Shown here in pieces: positions 1,909-23,113 of a DNA stretch of 23,167 bases (positions are counted from its first letter, which is position 1; each line of letters starts with the position of its first letter). This DNA is from a virus. The position numbers and the translations under genes were made by a program. The stretch lies in IMG/VR virus record IMGVR_UViG_3300021961_000658, positions 1-23,167 of that record; one strand, written 5' to 3'. The notes beneath the pieces were generated by a model. The model was not told the origin of the DNA. It did not search any database and saw only the letters and a program-made list of their open reading frames with translations.

Positions 1909-2522
1909 AAAAACCATCCCATCTTTTTATTCGTTATCGGTTTTGGTTTATTTTGACCAACAATTGCGTTGTTTAACTTATTATCATTTTGACCATAATC
2001 AAATAAAGCCCAATTGTTTTCACCACGACTTCTGACAAAATGAAGAAATAATTGCACAACTTCTTCTTGATTTATTTCTTCACGCCAATGTTCAGCTTGA
2101 CATCCAAGATACAACATAGCATCACCACATTCAAATGATACCTTTCTTTCTTCACCTTTAGGTGTTTTAATGTAAATTGGCCAATCTTTTTTTTGATATA
2201 AATTTACTGTCATACTAATTTCACACGCTGGTCTATCTTTATGTCGTTTTAAATCATCACCAGCTCTATAAATTCTAGCATAACAATATGTTGGAAAAAC
2301 AGATTCTTTAATTAAATTACAAACAGCTGGAACAGATTGTGTCAAAACTTCAACAAATGGTAAAAAGTTATAGACAGAACTTGAATTTGGAGCTTGCATA
2401 TCTCCCACTATATTAGATTGGTCACAAAAATTTTTAAATTCTCTAGTTAAATTTAGACAATCATTTTCTTTTAAAAATTTTGGAACAAAAATATAATTAT
2501 TATCAACCAACTCTTGTATCAT
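1905..2522 (-). CDS. 2OG-Fe(II) oxygenase (prolyl-4-hydroxylase-like)
   Basis: Predicted iron- and 2-oxoglutarate-dependent dioxygenase, 205 residues. The double-stranded beta-helix core gives the iron triad H94-x-D96 (context RHKDRP) and distal H145 (context AEHWREE). Upstream is YARIYRAGDD (81-90), and GDAMLYLGC (133-141) precedes the distal His, as in other small phage members. I cannot assign the 2OG-binding basic residue with certainty. The start overlaps the gp55 stop as ATGA, and the stop overlaps the gp47 start in the same way, so the gene is locked into the late-sigma/recombination operon. Such oxygenases are common accessory genes of aquatic T4-like phages, but their substrate is not established. 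Family assignment is firm; substrate is unknown. Confidence 0.88.
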   Translation of the reverse strand: MIQELVDNNYIFVPKFLKENDCLNLTREFKNFCDQSNIVGDMQAPNSSSVYNFLPFVEVLTQSVPAVCNLIKESVFPTYCYARIYRAGDDLKRHKDRPACEISMTVNLYQKKDWPIYIKTPKGEERKVSFECGDAMLYLGCQAEHWREEINQEEVVQLFLHFVRSRGENNWALFDYGQNDNKLNNAIVGQNKPKPITNKKMGWFL

Positions 2523-3055
2523 GCATCAGGACTTTCCAAAAAATTATCCAAACCTTTAGCTTTCATTTTTTTCTTCTTTTTATTTTCTTCGAAATTGTAA
2601 ATGAATTCCGAAATATTATCATATAGTTCAAATTGTTTCATATTACCTTCCGCATCTTCATACATCTCACCTTCATCAAGTATACCAAATTGTTGTGTTG
2701 CCTTATATTTGACATAAAGTTGTTTCTTCTCCTTCATAATTCTTCGGAGAAATGCATAATACACTATTTGAGTAAAATAAGCAAACGGATTTTTACTTTT
2801 ATCCGGGTCAAAATTACGGAAATACATCAAACAGTTTTCAACACCATCCGAAATCATCTCATCACGGAAAGTATAAGAAATGAAATTTGGCTTTCTGGAA
2901 AGATGTTCAGCAATCTTCAAAAAACATTCGCCAATGTAATTTGGTATAGGAGGTTCTTCTGTTTTCTCCTTTTTTGCCGTTAAGCAACCTTTCTTATACT
3001 CTATAAGAGCTGATAAAAAATCTGCGTTATTGATATAGTGATTCGATTTAGTCAT
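2519..3055 (-). CDS. 55: gp55 late-transcription sigma factor
   Basis: Diverged sigma factor that directs host RNA polymerase to TATAAATA late promoters. The 178-residue protein starts MTKSNHYINNADFLSALIEY, closely matching the T4 gp55 N-terminus, and keeps the region with EMISDGVENCLMYFRNFD and KNPFAYFTQIVYYAFLRRI. It ends GLDNFLESPDA (168-178), the counterpart of the T4 C-terminal peptide that contacts the sliding clamp (hydrophobic LDxFLE followed by acid). The open frame extends upstream to 3166, but that start would overlap the Sm-like gene by about 41 bases and lacks homology. The ATG at 3055 has AAAGG six bases upstream. Perfect gp55-type promoters stand before genes 13 and 22 in this window. 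Confidence 0.95.
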   Translation of the reverse strand: MTKSNHYINNADFLSALIEYKKGCLTAKKEKTEEPPIPNYIGECFLKIAEHLSRKPNFISYTFRDEMISDGVENCLMYFRNFDPDKSKNPFAYFTQIVYYAFLRRIMKEKKQLYVKYKATQQFGILDEGEMYEDAEGNMKQFELYDNISEFIYNFEENKKKKKMKAKGLDNFLESPDA

Positions 3056-9628: not shown

Positions 9629-10069
9629 TTATTTTAATCCTAAAGTTGACCGCCTTCTCATCGACATCTTTCTTTTTAACAATGAACGGCGCAGTTTAGC
9701 TCTCCTAGTTGTTTTCCAAGAACGTTTCAATAAACGTGCTTTTCTTATCCTATCAATAGCAGGTATGCGTTTAACGGTATTACCTGATATTTTATAACCT
9801 TTAATGCCAGAACGTCTGCGATTCTTTTGAACAACAATACGGCCTTTGGCGTTTCTTCTTACTCTACGGCGAATCTTATTGATTCTACCCATTTTAATAA
9901 TGTTGGCATTTCTTTTTACAGCTTCCAACAAATCATCATCAAACATTTCTGTTTTTAATTTTTCTTTTTCTTCAGCTAATTTAATTTTGAGCTTTTCTTC
10001 CAACATTTGTTCAAAAATGTCTTTAGCTTGTTTTAAATCTCCATCGATAATTAAATCTATTAATCTCAT
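9629..10069 (-). CDS. 68: Very basic prohead core-like protein (gp68 position)
   Basis: A 146-residue protein with two parts. Residues 1-55 form an amphipathic, acidic/basic helix (LIDLIIDGDLKQAKDIFEQM onward) resembling the N-terminal module of the gp67-like protein upstream. Residues 59-146 hold 37 Arg/Lys and a single acidic residue, including RRRVRR (67-72), NRRR (83-86) and KRKMSMRRRS (132-141). Position between the portal/gp67 and gp21 corresponds to T4 gp68, a prohead core protein, so I use that symbol tentatively. The start overlaps the preceding stop as ATGA. The tail could bind packaged DNA or interact with acidic gp22 and gp67-like tails in the core. Confidence 0.7.
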   Translation of the reverse strand: MRLIDLIIDGDLKQAKDIFEQMLEEKLKIKLAEEKEKLKTEMFDDDLLEAVKRNANIIKMGRINKIRRRVRRNAKGRIVVQKNRRRSGIKGYKISGNTVKRIPAIDRIRKARLLKRSWKTTRRAKLRRSLLKRKMSMRRRSTLGLK

Positions 10070-15149: not shown

Positions 15150-16781
15150 TTAGAAAATTGAACTGGTATAACCTCGATTTTGAATTTCAGACCAGAAATT
15201 TCCATCAGAATCTACAATAGGTTCTGGTCTTCCATCATCGATAATACCTACCGGGGTCAAATTTTCATCTATTAACATATTATTTTCTTCTAAAAGAACC
15301 TTTCGGATATCTATATTTGTTGATTCTTTGAAGTAGTTTTGTGCGGCCAACCAAGCAAACAAAACTAATCCCATTACCAAATCATCATTATTACCCTCTT
15401 CAGCTGCGTAACTATCTTTTTCTCTCACAAAGGTATTCAATTCAGCTATGGTATCAAAATCATTGATTAATAATTTGTCGGATTCAATCAATGTTTTTAA
15501 GTTTGCACAACCAATTTTCTTAACAGTTTTAGTTGTTCTAATACCAAAATTTGCAGTACGTTTGAAACCACCAGATATTGTTTGACCTTTGATATGGTGG
15601 TGGTCAATTTTGTAAACATTTTCATATTCCAAATCATAATGCATTATATCAACCACTTGTTGACCTACGTTATTAGTTTCAATCAAAACGTAAGCTTCAT
15701 TATATCTATTTGCCAGTGAATAAATTACTGTTGGAAAAAATAACAAGGGTAATTTATTGTTCCTATACTTTGCAACTTGTTTATAAGGAACTTGAGTTGC
15801 ATCTATGACATTAATCGTTGAATAGTCTTGTCCAACGCCCTCCGAACAGTCTACAGTTGCAATATAGGTGTGTCCTTGTATCGGTTCTTCATAGATGTCC
15901 AAACCTTCTTCCATTCGTATTGGGTTGAAGAATGGCATTGACCTAAGTTTTGCACCAGAAATTAATGTTGCCGATGAACCAATAAATTCAGTTTCAAATT
16001 CTACTCTGAATTGTTCTTCGGACGTATTCCTAATTGTCTCTTCTTTCCACTTTTCATCTCTACCCGGCACCATAGACCAGTGAACTTCAACCGGTGTATA
16101 TGTTGACCTGCCTTCTATAGCATCTGTCCACATCTTATAGAAAAGATTTAAACCATTAGGAGTTGAAACGATAATAACTTTTGTGGTTTGACCAGATGAA
16201 ATAACAGGATATGTTGATTGAAAGAAATCTTGCGCCATATTATGTTGAACGAACGCAAATTCATCAAGGAAGATTAAGTTATAAGAACCACCACGAACAC
16301 CAGAAGCGGATGTGGCATATGCAAATATTTTTGAACCATTCTCCAATTCAATATTACCCTTGTTCCAAACAATAATGCCTTGTTGCAACCAAAGTGGTAA
16401 ATACTCATAAGATTTTTGTAATCTTCCTAAAATCTCACGAGCGAGAGAACCTTTGTTAGCTAAAACACCAATTGTATAATCTTCTTGGAATAAAACACAC
16501 CACAACATATAACCAACAGTTGTGGTTGTTTTACCAACCTGTCGTGGCATTTTACAAATTGAGAAACGGTTATTATGAAAAGAATTGACCATATTTTCTT
16601 GAAATGGCCACATCTCAAATGGAACTAAACCCAAATCAACGTTTACAATCTTAACATAATTTCGAATGAAATATACGGGGTCAGCAATACATCTAGCAAT
16701 CTCTAATGCTTGTTCTTCCGTATAGTTGATTTCAACGCCTACTCTTTTTAGACGTTCATTACCAAGATAACCTTCACTCAT
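15150..16781 (-). CDS. 17: gp17 terminase large subunit (packaging ATPase and nuclease)
   Basis: Motor and headful nuclease, 543 residues (T4: 610; the shortening is N-terminal). ATPase motifs: FEMWPFQ adenine-binding motif (55-61), Walker A PRQVGKTT (79-86), Walker B NLIFLDE (168-174), coupling motif STPNG (206-210). The RNase H-like nuclease domain shows DCSEGVGQDYS with D311, IETNNVGQ with E368, and GNNDDLV with D466/D467, the expected acidic triad. The ATG overlaps the stop of the Dps-like gene by four bases (ATGA), so its translation is likely coupled to that gene, an unusual partner. Confidence 0.98.
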   Translation of the reverse strand: MSEGYLGNERLKRVGVEINYTEEQALEIARCIADPVYFIRNYVKIVNVDLGLVPFEMWPFQENMVNSFHNNRFSICKMPRQVGKTTTTVGYMLWCVLFQEDYTIGVLANKGSLAREILGRLQKSYEYLPLWLQQGIIVWNKGNIELENGSKIFAYATSASGVRGGSYNLIFLDEFAFVQHNMAQDFFQSTYPVISSGQTTKVIIVSTPNGLNLFYKMWTDAIEGRSTYTPVEVHWSMVPGRDEKWKEETIRNTSEEQFRVEFETEFIGSSATLISGAKLRSMPFFNPIRMEEGLDIYEEPIQGHTYIATVDCSEGVGQDYSTINVIDATQVPYKQVAKYRNNKLPLLFFPTVIYSLANRYNEAYVLIETNNVGQQVVDIMHYDLEYENVYKIDHHHIKGQTISGGFKRTANFGIRTTKTVKKIGCANLKTLIESDKLLINDFDTIAELNTFVREKDSYAAEEGNNDDLVMGLVLFAWLAAQNYFKESTNIDIRKVLLEENNMLIDENLTPVGIIDDGRPEPIVDSDGNFWSEIQNRGYTSSIF

Positions 16782-17212
16782 TTTGTTATGCTACGAAGCA
16801 TCCATCCGTGTTTGTTGTGAACGTCAATTCTACCCGCAAGAAAGTCCATTAAACCTTGTTTGTCAAATTGTTCAGCTAATTTAAATGTCATATTCAATGT
16901 ATTTAAAACCACATCATTATCCGATAACAATTTTCTTGCCATCTCAACACCTTCTAACATTTCATTTTCATCTTGTATTTCGGTTAATTCCATATACTTA
17001 GAAAACGAACCAGGAGCATAAGCATCTAAAGCTCTTATTTGTTCTGCGGTAACATCAACCGCAGCATGTAGTTCTTCATAAAGATTACCAAAAAATTCAT
17101 GATATTGTGGAAAATTAGAACCTTCTACATTCCAATGAAAGTTGTGACTTTTCAAATACATTGCAAAAGTATCAGCAAGTATTTTTCTCATTAATTCTAC
17201 TAAAGTTTCCAT
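16778..17212 (-). CDS. Dps-like ferritin-fold protein (DNA protection/iron storage family)
   Basis: A 144-residue four-helix ferritin-like protein. HNFHWNVEG (23-31) followed by H38 aligns without gaps to the E. coli Dps ferroxidase region: H26, H38, D53 and E57 correspond to H51, H63, D78 and E82. The fifth residue, D67, is replaced by Gly42. The final helix contains GRIDVHNKHGWMLRS (126-140), typical of Dps. It lacks the Lys-rich N-terminal tail with which E. coli Dps binds DNA. The ribosome site TAAGGA is built on the gp16 stop codon, and its own stop overlaps the gp17 start, so it is embedded in the terminase operon. Family is clear; whether it oxidises iron, protects DNA or serves packaging is unknown. 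Confidence 0.9.
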   Translation of the reverse strand: METLVELMRKILADTFAMYLKSHNFHWNVEGSNFPQYHEFFGNLYEELHAAVDVTAEQIRALDAYAPGSFSKYMELTEIQDENEMLEGVEMARKLLSDNDVVLNTLNMTFKLAEQFDKQGLMDFLAGRIDVHNKHGWMLRSITK

Positions 17213-17221
17213 TTCTTTTCC

Positions 17222-17608
17222 TTATTCTTTACTCTTTAACATTTTAACCAAATCTTTTGTTGAACCAACAAATACAGCATTTTGCACATTCACATTGTTT
17301 TGTTCAGATTTAGGTTGTAAATCTTTTTTTCTTTTTTGTATTTCCATTAAATCTTTGTTCATGTCTGCCAAACTTTTCAACATATTCGCTGCGACTTCAT
17401 ATGCTCTAGGATGTTCCGATTCTTTCGCAACATTCAAAATATTATCCATGGCCACATTACCTTTTTCAATTAAGCCTCGTATATTTTGCCTAGCGAATTC
17501 AGCGTCATCTTCAACAGAAGAAGTAACTGTGGTAACAATTTCGTTTTCGTTATAATCTATAGGTTCAATATCCAATACCTCAGAAAGTTTTTCATTTACT
17601 TTACTCAT
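17222..17608 (-). CDS. 16: gp16 terminase small subunit
   Basis: DNA-recognition and motor-regulating terminase subunit, 128 residues (T4: 164). The central domain reads FARQNIRGLIEKGNVAMDNI, then AKESEHPRAYEVAANMLKSL and MNKDLMEIQKRKKDL, a helix pair as in T4 gp16 (ADSPRHMEVFATLMGQM there). The C-terminal NVNVQNAVFVGSTKDLVKML (109-124) matches the T4 NIQNATVFMGSPTEL end. Short acidic N-terminus. AAGGA lies 10 bases before the ATG. A Dps-like gene separates it from gp17, unlike T4, where 16 and 17 are adjacent. Confidence 0.93.
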   Translation of the reverse strand: MSKVNEKLSEVLDIEPIDYNENEIVTTVTSSVEDDAEFARQNIRGLIEKGNVAMDNILNVAKESEHPRAYEVAANMLKSLADMNKDLMEIQKRKKDLQPKSEQNNVNVQNAVFVGSTKDLVKMLKSKE

Positions 17609-17623
17609 AATCTATTTTTCCTT

Positions 17624-20287
17624 TTATTTAACCTCTTTAACCCCAAAGGTATCACCACCCACACCGAAATATTGACGAATGTTATCTGCATTAAATCCTT
17701 CTGCTGACATTTTATTTGATATTCTATAAGTTACAGTATCGCCTGCACTTGCACCGTGTGTATCAACTCTGAAATAATTAAGAGGCCCAAACCATGTATT
17801 TACAGGAGCTGTCCAAGCGCATACTTTTGTAAATGTTCCAGAATTAATTTTTCTTTCTAAGTTGACAATTGCTTCAGCCGTGTTATCATCAACATCAAAA
17901 AACAATCCGCTAAATTCAACTTTACATTTTGTAAATCCTGGTGAAACAGTAAACGATACTTCTAAATCAGCTGTATCACCTTCGTTTCTAAATTGACCAC
18001 CATCTGCAACATTAAAAGATGCAGTCGTTTGATTGCCAGCGCTAAATGTATTCCAATTTTCATTACCTGTTGATAAATCTTTCCATCCATTGTTATAAAC
18101 GACTAGAGTTTTTACTCCTCTTGATGCTGGGTCCCAATTACTACCGTCTGCATATGCAATCATACCATCAACCGGTGAAGATGGAGCCGCAGTAAGTGTT
18201 GGTAATGAAACTACACTTGTCAATTGAACTGGTGTTGCACCACCAGTCTTCAGTGAAGAAACTGTAGCTGAAGTACCATCAGATGTTAATTGAACAGCAC
18301 CCAAATATACTTTGGATGAATAAAGTGTGTTCCACTTTTTACTTATATTACCTAAATCATAATTATTATCCGAATCTGGTATTAAAGTGCCTTTAACATC
18401 AAAATATTCTGCAAATTCGGTTGTATCACTGTGTGCTACTATTTGAGCTGCATATGTTGAAGAACTTTCGACGATTGATGATGGTGTTGTAAATGTGTTT
18501 GCTGTATCAAAAGCCGCATTAGCGTGATGTGCTGAATAAGTTGCTTTATTATCAACATCTACGATATCATTAGCATTAGTGTTTGCTGTATCAAAAGCAG
18601 CACCAGCATGATTGCTAACTGTTGTAATATTACCTGCATTGGTTGTAATATCAGAAGCATTAGTATTTGCTTGGTCAAAAGCAGCATCAGCATGATTACT
18701 AACATCTACAATTGTATTTGCTTGGTCATAAGCAGCACCAGCATGATTGCTAACTGTTGTAATATTACCTGCATTGGTTGTAATATCAGAAGCATTAGTA
18801 TTTGCTTGGTCAAAAGCAGCATCAGCATGATTACTGACTGTTACAATATCTGATGAATTTGTATTTGCTTGGTCATAGGCAGAATTTGCATAATCACCTG
18901 AAGTTACAGCTAAATCATATGTCAAATTCGCATATGTAAAAGCAGAATTTGCATAATCTCCAGCTGAACTGGAATCCTGTGATACAGTAATTGTTGATGT
19001 ATAAACGGTGTTTGCTAAATCATAAGCAGAATTTGCATAATCACCAGATGTTTCGGCCTTTTGGTCAGCAGTAGCTGCATCAGTAGTTGCAGTATTTGCT
19101 TGGTCATAAGCAGCACCAGCATGATTACTAACCGTTGTAATATTACCTGCATTAGTTGTAATATCACCAGCATTAGTATTTGCCTGATCATAAGCAGCAT
19201 CAGCATGATTACTGACTGTTACAATATCAGATGCGTTTGTATTGGCTTTTACAAAAGATGCATTGGCGTGATGACCAGAATAAATTGCTTTATTATCTAC
19301 GGTGGTTGCATAAGTTGTAACTGCGTTTGCTCCATTGAAAGCACTGTTTGCGTGATGTCCGTTGTAAATGGCTTTATTATTTACTGTTGCAATATCAGTT
19401 ATATTTGTATTTGCTTGGTCAAAAGCACTATTTGCATAATCACCTGAAGTTTCTGCATATAGTATTCCAGTATTTCCTCGGTCCAAAGCAGTATTAGCAT
19501 AGTCACCACTCGTTACTGCTCTTTGGTCAGCAGTAGCTGCATCAGTAGTTGCAGTATTTGCTTGGTCATAGGCGGCGTTAGCGTGTGGTCTAGCATAAGG
19601 ATCTATGTGTTCTGTAGCTGTATTTGCAACCGCAAAGGCAGCATTGGCATAATCACCTGCAATAACAATATCTACAGCATTTGTATTTGCTTGAGTAAAT
19701 GCAGCTTCAGCATGACCTTCAACCAAAGATAATTCAGTATCGGTAAGTATGTTTGAATATGTGACACCATCATTTGTAAATTCCCACCTATCACTCGTTT
19801 CATTCCAACCTAAAATTACGGTTGCTTCATCTCCACGATTTACTCTAAAACCGGCATTGACTGCTGGGTAACCAGTAGCACCATAAACAATATCTATCAA
19901 ATTATCTTGTACTCTTAAAGTCGAAACTTCTAATGAGGCGGTGCATCCAGAAACTGTCAAATTTCCTGTAATAATCATATCACCACCAACAGTTCCACCT
20001 GTGGTTAAATCCACTATATTGTTTGCTAAATCAAATGCAGAATTCGCATAATTTCCAGCACTTAAAGCTTTTTGATCGGCCGCAGCTGCGTTCGTAGTCG
20101 CTGTATTTGCTTGATCATAAGCAGATTCTGCCATTGGTATACTCGCTTCAATTGAATCATTAAAGTCTTGCAATGAAACCCGTCCTGTTGTTCCGGTTGT
20201 CTGGTCAACAACCGGTATTATTATTTGTGTTAAATCTGCACCTGGTGTTACCGGTAATAATTCTGATATTTTTTTAGTAGTTGCCAT
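17624..20287 (-). CDS. Large heptad-repeat fibre/whisker-like structural protein
   Basis: An 887-residue protein not found between 15 and 16 in T4. Order: N-terminal head (1-50, MATTKKISELLPVTPGADLT onward); a short repeat stretch (52-95); a beta-module (about 98-180, GDMIITGNLTVSG, DNLIDIVYGA, GFRVNRGDE, ILGWNETSDRWEFTNDG) shared with many phage tail proteins; a long repeat domain (about 190-610) of A-N-S-A-Y/F-D-Q-A-N-T units mostly 28 or 21 residues long, multiples of seven, suggesting a trimeric coiled-coil shaft; then NYDLGNISKKWNTLYSS, PVDGMIAYADGSNWDP and a C-terminal beta-rich tip of about 140 residues. AGG lies about 10 bases before the ATG. Likely a head/neck whisker or tail fibre; the attachment site is inferred from its place in the neck cluster. 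Confidence 0.85.
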   Translation of the reverse strand: MATTKKISELLPVTPGADLTQIIIPVVDQTTGTTGRVSLQDFNDSIEASIPMAESAYDQANTATTNAAAADQKALSAGNYANSAFDLANNIVDLTTGGTVGGDMIITGNLTVSGCTASLEVSTLRVQDNLIDIVYGATGYPAVNAGFRVNRGDEATVILGWNETSDRWEFTNDGVTYSNILTDTELSLVEGHAEAAFTQANTNAVDIVIAGDYANAAFAVANTATEHIDPYARPHANAAYDQANTATTDAATADQRAVTSGDYANTALDRGNTGILYAETSGDYANSAFDQANTNITDIATVNNKAIYNGHHANSAFNGANAVTTYATTVDNKAIYSGHHANASFVKANTNASDIVTVSNHADAAYDQANTNAGDITTNAGNITTVSNHAGAAYDQANTATTDAATADQKAETSGDYANSAYDLANTVYTSTITVSQDSSSAGDYANSAFTYANLTYDLAVTSGDYANSAYDQANTNSSDIVTVSNHADAAFDQANTNASDITTNAGNITTVSNHAGAAYDQANTIVDVSNHADAAFDQANTNASDITTNAGNITTVSNHAGAAFDTANTNANDIVDVDNKATYSAHHANAAFDTANTFTTPSSIVESSSTYAAQIVAHSDTTEFAEYFDVKGTLIPDSDNNYDLGNISKKWNTLYSSKVYLGAVQLTSDGTSATVSSLKTGGATPVQLTSVVSLPTLTAAPSSPVDGMIAYADGSNWDPASRGVKTLVVYNNGWKDLSTGNENWNTFSAGNQTTASFNVADGGQFRNEGDTADLEVSFTVSPGFTKCKVEFSGLFFDVDDNTAEAIVNLERKINSGTFTKVCAWTAPVNTWFGPLNYFRVDTHGASAGDTVTYRISNKMSAEGFNADNIRQYFGVGGDTFGVKEVK
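18595..18700. repeat. 106-bp direct repeat, copy 1 (in fibre gene)
   Basis: Identical over 106 bases to 18730-18835, offset 135 bases (45 codons). It encodes repeat units of the fibre shaft. Confidence 0.95.
18730..18835. repeat. 106-bp direct repeat, copy 2 (in fibre gene)
   Basis: Perfect copy of 18595-18700. Identity at third codon positions implies recent duplication or gene conversion. Confidence 0.95.
19060..19108. repeat. 49-bp direct repeat, copy A (in fibre gene)
   Basis: Identical to 19522-19570 (offset 462 bases, 154 codons), coding for an ATTDAATADQ-type unit and the junction into YDQANT. Confidence 0.9.
19108..19213. repeat. 106-bp direct repeat, diverged copy 3 (in fibre gene)
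   Basis: Same length and frame as the copies at 18595 and 18730, with about eight substitutions by eye. Confidence 0.88.
19522..19570. repeat. 49-bp direct repeat, copy B (in fibre gene)
   Basis: Identical to 19060-19108; same reading frame on the minus strand. Confidence 0.9.
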
Positions 20288-23105: not shown

Positions 23106-23113
23106 TATTTATA
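23106..23113 (-). promoter_or_regulatory. T4-type late promoter TATAAATA for the neck operon
   Basis: Exact TATAAATA on the minus strand, 20 bases before the gp13 ATG, lying just after the stop of the preceding frame. AGGAGA follows between it and the start codon. Confidence 0.88.

Follow-up and report, generated by a model that had tools for sequence, protein, structure and literature searches.

The window considered here, i.e. the whole stretch of 23,167 nucleotides that was analysed (IMG/VR record IMGVR_UViG_3300021961_000658), is a 23-kb fragment of a virus genome. The source virus infects aquatic bacteria, and its relatives are uncultured aquatic T4-like phages. A gene encoding a Dps protein was found between the genes of the small and large terminase subunits, gp16 and gp17, in the position that is called the slot below. 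The features of this region are as follows.

17222..17608, minus strand: gp16, terminase small subunit, upstream wall of the slot (PF11053, E=6e-9; phrog_445, E=3e-37)
17213..17224, minus strand: gp16 stop codon TAA merged with the dps ribosome site (TAAGGAAAAGAA; sequence)
16778..17212, minus strand: dps, type I slot Dps, 144 codons, five-helix Dps fold (Pfam Ferritin PF00210, E=1.2e-18; PHROG 3636, annotated 'DNA binding protein', E=3.6e-30; sequence match to PDB 8ff9, E=2e-31)
16778..16781, minus strand: ATGA, dps stop codon TGA (16780-16778) overlapping the gp17 start codon ATG (16781-16779; sequence)
15150..16781, minus strand: gp17, terminase large subunit, downstream wall of the slot (Terminase_6N/6C; phrog_5989, E=6e-63)

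The gp16 stop codon (17224-17222) is followed by GGAAAAGAA and then by the dps ATG at 17212. The TAA continues into GGA, six bases ahead of this ATG. Thus the dps ribosome site is merged with the gp16 stop, as described in the original prediction, and the overlap of the dps stop with the gp17 start, reported there as well, was also confirmed by reading the sequence. The open reading frame is a genuine gene and not a chance one, given the Pfam, PHROG and PDB matches, the hundreds of viral relatives, and the dN/dS ratio (median 0.15), which corresponds to purifying selection.

The AlphaFold2 model of a single chain, based on an alignment of 49 relatives, has pLDDT 97.8. It is a four-helix bundle (helices A, B, C and D at residues 2-28, 34-61, 88-115 and 119-143) with an extra short BC helix (residues 70-76), as in classical Dps; the short BC helix is a mark of Dps (PMC11150526). 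The best PDB matches found by Foldseek are all Dps proteins, the first being PA0962 of Pseudomonas aeruginosa (8ff9, TM 0.95, 40% identity). Hence the identification of the gene as a ferritin-fold dps, initially made from the letters alone, is borne out by Pfam, PHROG, the PDB match, AlphaFold2 and Foldseek, and structure prediction, proposed for the dodecamer, gave a Dps fold for the single chain. By homology, the protein is predicted to form a dodecamer. The lysine-rich N-terminal DNA-binding tail of the E. coli Dps kind is absent, again as originally described: the protein starts with METLVELM, and the modelled helix A begins at residue 2. The median net charge of type I proteins is -9.

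The P. aeruginosa protein DpsL (PA4880) is a dodecamer with the Dps fold, and this fold is common to DpsL and the window protein. However, the ferroxidase site of DpsL lies within each subunit (E47, E80, H83, E130, E162, H165; PMC11150526), whereas the window protein keeps the inter-subunit Dps ligands. No DpsL (bacterioferritin-type) site, which consists of two ExxH motifs plus two other glutamates of one subunit, was found in the window protein, as helix D contains D130-x-H132-x-x-H135 and no ExxH; the E46xxH49 motif of this protein is not conserved across Dps types.

The positions relevant for iron binding are encoded as follows.

17135..17137, minus strand: His26 codon, predicted iron ligand (Pa Dps H37, E. 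coli H51; alignment, invariance in 270/270, PMC10002758)
17099..17101, minus strand: His38 codon, predicted iron ligand (Pa Dps H49, E. coli H63; alignment, invariance, PMC10002758)
17087..17089, minus strand: Gly42 codon, variable outside type I (Pa Dps E53, E. coli D67; alignment)
17054..17056, minus strand: Asp53 codon, predicted iron ligand of the partner subunit (Pa Dps D64, E. coli D78; alignment, invariance, PMC10002758)
17042..17044, minus strand: Glu57 codon, predicted iron ligand of the partner subunit (Pa Dps E68, E. coli E82; alignment, invariance, PMC10002758)

The register with E. coli Dps is ungapped with an offset of 25, and it reproduces the earlier alignment, in which H26, H38, D53 and E57 are retained and Gly42 replaces D67. 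The same four residues align without gaps with H37, H49, D64 and E68 of P. aeruginosa Dps (Pa Dps), and these two histidines and two carboxylates are its only iron ligands (PMC10002758). Pa Dps binds two irons, its ferroxidase activity is H2O2-dependent, and E53, the equivalent of G42, is absent from the listed ligands (PMC10002758). The four residues are invariant in 270 of 270 unique viral relatives (63 of type I, 100 of type II, described below, and 107 other viral proteins), where 'unique' means that only identical sequences were dropped and many loci are near-duplicates, and where the invariance of H26 and H38 is partly built in, as some search patterns contain these residues; the loci selected by gp17 (see below) are free of this effect. 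They are also invariant in 71 bacterial sequences.

Position 42 behaves differently. It is occupied by glycine in all 63 unique type I sequences. In type II the counts are G 41, N 28, D 24, A 3, K 2 and E 1; other phages have G, E, D, A, Q or K, mainly the first three, and bacterial relatives have D, M, E or G. An aspartate in the position of E. coli D67, which the window protein lacks, was not treated as a defining feature of Dps, because this position varies among relatives and is not a ligand in Pa Dps. The glycine, fixed in type I, could be taken to mean that one ferroxidase ligand has been lost and the cage is redox-dead, and an altered, non-ferroxidase cage was indeed among the original suggestions. 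However, Pa Dps works with H2O2 on just the four residues that are intact here (PMC10002758), and the substitutions at position 42 in type II and in bacteria are those of a non-ligand. For these reasons the dead cage was rejected as highly improbable. Judging by the alignments, Gly42 appears to be characteristic of the lineage and not to replace a ligand; a functional site of the H2O2 type is a better prediction than a damaged one. The intact four-residue site is possibly compatible with low-activity or storage variants as well.

Pa Dps (PDB 8FF9-8FFD) resembles the phage protein along the whole chain, at 40% identity and TM 0.95, with the four ligands in the same register. The differences are about 11 additional N-terminal residues, E53 instead of G42, and the cellular origin of the gene. 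Pa Dps cleaves plasmid DNA in vitro in the presence of divalent cations (PMC10002758). As P. aeruginosa DpsL also nicks DNA (PMC11150526), the slot protein might be a metal-dependent DNA-nicking Dps aimed at host or competing phage DNA. On the other hand, the reaction mechanism is left open in both studies, the window protein is acidic and tail-less, and a nuclease that is late and well expressed would endanger the phage's own DNA. Thus a nicking function seems improbable.

The search of IMG/VR with the window Dps yielded 80 close relatives, and wherever the flanks are present, gp16 and/or gp17 adjoins dps. Relatives of at least about 60% identity with readable flanks have Dps in the slot; the apparent exception, L185 (60% identity), belongs to other phages. 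Relatives at 50-60% identity come from other phages and other places in the genome. To avoid selecting on Dps, a second search was based on gp17, and it produced 69 loci with readable upstream DNA. Dps lies between gp16 and gp17 in 53 of these 69 uncultured T4-like loci, a prevalence that holds for relatives whose gp17 is 65-86% identical to that of the window. The search for Dps homologues between gp16 and gp17, proposed as a check, was therefore positive. The remaining 16 loci have no Dps, so it is not an ever-present companion of gp16 and gp17, and in most of them these genes are 10-26 nt apart.

Many of the 53 loci carry a second type of Dps, type II, mostly 37-47% (about 42%) identical to the window protein. 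A search with type II Dps retrieved 80 loci, in all of which (80/80) it occupies the slot. All slot Dps tested belong to PHROG 3636 (E=4e-30 to 8e-34), but the name of this family tells nothing of the gp16-gp17 location or of two interchangeable types. The spacing to gp16 is typically -1 to +13 nt, and that to gp17 is -4 to +21 nt. In L007 and L011 Dps is about 2.1 kb from gp16. In this subgroup (L007:3859-5976, also L011), gp16 and dps are separated by two genes encoding tail-fibre-like proteins of 152 and 551 aa; the longer protein has Gly-rich matches and a weak similarity to Calx-beta.

Phage-borne Dps is already known, mostly from scattered isolates. The Dps of Synechococcus phages S-SRM01 and S-EIVl, Salmonella phage 7-11, Proteus phage P59 and Streptomyces phage Kenrey are about 22-31% identical to the window protein and, in the aligned cases, agree with it in the four ligands; glycine at position 42 is shared by S-SRM01 and S-EIVl. 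In the neighbourhoods read, these genes lie away from the terminase genes, and no isolate among the records whose Dps neighbourhood was read has Dps in the slot. Other ORFs are found between gp16 and gp17 in T4-like isolates: 69 aa in Mosig, 83 aa in S-SSM7, and a 677-aa F5/8 type C protein in Melnitz. Thus the expectation that full-site homologues would not be scattered over random loci holds in part: other phages do carry homologues elsewhere, whereas in the T4-like group the slot is strongly conserved. No report of Dps between gp16 and gp17 was found in the open-licence literature. The new part is the locus, that is, one late-operon site kept for Dps in which two divergent types replace each other, and which was not seen in the isolates examined. 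The cyanophage host marker psbA was not observed in 10 contigs of one set and 29 of another, the sets overlapping in part and the contigs being of uncertain completeness. Staphylococcus and Listeria 'phage' records with Dps matches were left out, as they look like bacterial DNA; the unannotated records OR850242, OR845009, OR847788 and OR848339 are apparently bacterial DNA filed as phage.

The types are exchanged between otherwise similar operons. Loci L046 (type I) and L373 (type II) are 78, 82, 83, 92, 89 and 89% identical in gp14, gp15, gp16, gp17, gp18 and gp19, respectively, with only 45% in Dps, and similar patterns were observed for the pairs L047/L375, L173/L339 and L018/L336. Presence and absence alternate in the same manner: L023, with Dps, and L278, without it, have identities of 82, 83, 90, 86 and 93% in gp15, gp16, gp17, gp18 and gp19. 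The gp17 tree comprises 68 representatives; mapping of the three slot states (type I, type II and none) onto it requires at least 18 changes. If only the well-supported branches are counted, the minimum is 6 changes for type II, 8 for type I and 5 for none. In the Dps tree type II forms one clade (support 100), type I nearly so (94), and viral Dps are set apart from the bacterial rows (99). Two independent acquisitions of types I and II are not claimed, as a joint clade survives the AU test (p=0.60).

These observations bear on the possibility that Dps, coupled by translation, serves as an accessory at the packaging motor, either to the terminase or to DNA. In most relatives dps is a few nucleotides from either neighbour, and so stable a location in a conserved slot could mean a link to packaging. 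However, such close spacing is usual for late operons of T4-like phages, other phages have their homologues away from the terminase, and in the subgroup of L007 and L011 Dps is distant from gp16. The motor role is disfavoured mainly because Dps is absent in about a quarter of the gp17-selected loci, where gp16 and gp17 are mostly directly adjacent, and because versions are freely exchanged, a Dps of about 42% identity substituting for another while gp16 and gp17 change little. Hence a functional link to the packaging motor is not supported, and we consider such a role very unlikely. The gene looks like exchangeable protective cargo and not like a part of the packaging motor.

Candidate mobile genes were observed beside the slot. 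GIY-YIG-like/NUMOD3 ORFs, with the GIY-YIG assignment resting partly on reading the sequence by eye, occur between dps and gp17 in L005, L043 and L072 and in the Dps-less slot of L244, and an HNH ORF is present between gp16 and dps in L040. Plausibly, homing endonucleases at these places help the swapping of Dps. One could go further and suppose a dedicated exchange site, where selection keeps the junction stocked with some Dps, recombination, possibly driven by homing endonucleases, swaps divergent versions matched to hosts or defences, and the protein acts, perhaps within the virion, on phage DNA that is newly synthesised or already packaged; we regard this as rather unlikely. In L300 (1944-3141) and L334 (4440-5634), gp17 has an intein-like interruption after the Walker-A-like 'PRQVGK', followed by an endonuclease-like ORF.

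Two further features of the window are relevant for the timing of expression.

23106..23113, minus strand: TATAAATA, octamer resembling the T4 late promoter, upstream of the gp13-14-15-(887 aa)-16-dps-17 run (located just upstream of ORF 23086)
2519..3052, minus strand: gp55-like late sigma factor (phrog_234, late sigma transcription factor, E=1e-60)

The window also contains TATAAATA ahead of ORF 8576 and AATAAATA ahead of gp19; by count such octamers are not above chance, and the argument is in their places. No octamer belonging to dps itself was found in the window. On the other hand, in several relatives, especially those within L003-L014 where another gene parts gp16 and dps, TATAAATA or AATAAATA occurs about 25-31 nt before dps, and the spacing at gp19 is the same. 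At 12-16 nt upstream of dps, AATAAATA was observed in 69 of 132 unique upstream regions versus about 3 expected. However, this octamer mostly coincides with the C-terminal Asn-Lys-stop codons of gp16 and is also present in the Dps-less L232-L234; because of this overlap and occurrence without Dps, it is weak promoter evidence. A separate late promoter at -12 to -16 was rejected, and only the cases at -25 to -31 were taken as promoter-like. Overall, late expression of dps is likely; the gene would share a transcript with gp13-gp17, and its translation would be serial with that of gp16 and gp17.

The position in a late operon among head and packaging genes also suggests that Dps might be packaged in the virion head and travel with the genome, guarding it or bringing protection against iron and peroxide to the next host. 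Dps-fold domains in BFVD occur inside longer proteins of uncultured phages, three of them named 'Prohead protease' (763, 333 and 432 aa; names as listed); in some other phages dps is found near the gene of the head-and-packaging structural protein phrog_1645 (L208, L218) and near ORFs with N-termini resembling capsid-targeting ones. T4-type internal head proteins have an N-terminal capsid-targeting sequence with a prohead-protease site (the concept is described in PMC9026906). However, no such N-terminus was seen by eye in slot Dps, and METLVELMRKIL of the window protein is, by the same judgement, unlike the T4-type sequence. Further, in a regular-expression survey of the loci of these other phages, ORFs resembling capsid-targeted ones were not commoner near Dps than farther away (43/692 near, 39/374 far), and Dps fusions were not found in any of the IMG/VR loci that were fetched. 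It is thus doubtful that Dps is carried in the virion; were this so, the cargo that phages bring from cell to cell would come to include iron chemistry.

The long BFVD proteins with the Dps fold are A0A6J7WPK9, A0A6J7XDU5, A0A6J7WIS1 and A0A6J5RFH1, and it is possible that they are fusions of Dps to head-maturation proteins. In L185-L225 (e.g. L185:3888-7736, L197:3712-8279) Dps is found among large proteins with MKTFxxFLxE-like N-termini that resemble T4 capsid-targeting sequences; these neighbourhoods also contain several shared segments with no function assigned.

Of the readings weighed, we favour the following as probable: slot Dps is a late, cytosolic, H2O2-driven iron sink that protects DNA in the infected, dying host and is carried as exchangeable cargo. 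By homology, it would be a classical mini-ferritin dodecamer that oxidises Fe(II), preferably with H2O2. Each of its twelve inter-subunit sites would be formed by H26 and H38 of one subunit and D53 and E57 of the partner. In the infected cell it may remove ferrous iron together with peroxide, so that phage DNA awaiting packaging is spared Fenton breakage. The cargo would be parked in the gp16-gp17 junction, the slot being filled, emptied and refilled with the other type by recombination. The original suggestion of a late role in oxidative protection stands insofar as Dps is in a late operon and protection is its most likely role; the altered cage and a functional link to the motor are not supported.

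The function of an iron and peroxide sink is supported by purifying selection, by rubrerythrin, encoded away from the slot in 4 of the 27 related slot-Dps contigs (those of L018, L020, L044 and L381), and by gut 'Gratiaviridae' phages, which carry Dps and Mn-catalase (PMC8008677). For the latter, and likewise for Dps of Lactobacillus plantarum phages (PMC6669764), relief of oxidative stress in infected cells has been proposed; these phages are from different families, and no location relative to the terminase is known to be reported for their Dps. Rubrerythrin genes were located at L463:2559-2999 and L464:2588-3022, with a dCMP-deaminase-like gene nearby in both regions read.

The pattern at the slot points to recurring selection for iron and peroxide control late in infection. 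Near-identical operons with type I, type II or no Dps form a natural experiment. They are also a warning for inference from operon neighbours, since a gene translated in series with the terminase need not belong to it.

Two more genes of the window have no PHROG or Pfam match. The 887-aa protein encoded between gp15 and gp16 (17624-20287, minus strand) contains many 'AYDQANT/AFDQANT' repeats and resembles a structural protein of a fibrous or coiled kind. The 146-aa, very Arg/Lys-rich protein encoded near the prohead protease gene (9629-10069, minus strand) is possibly a prohead core protein.
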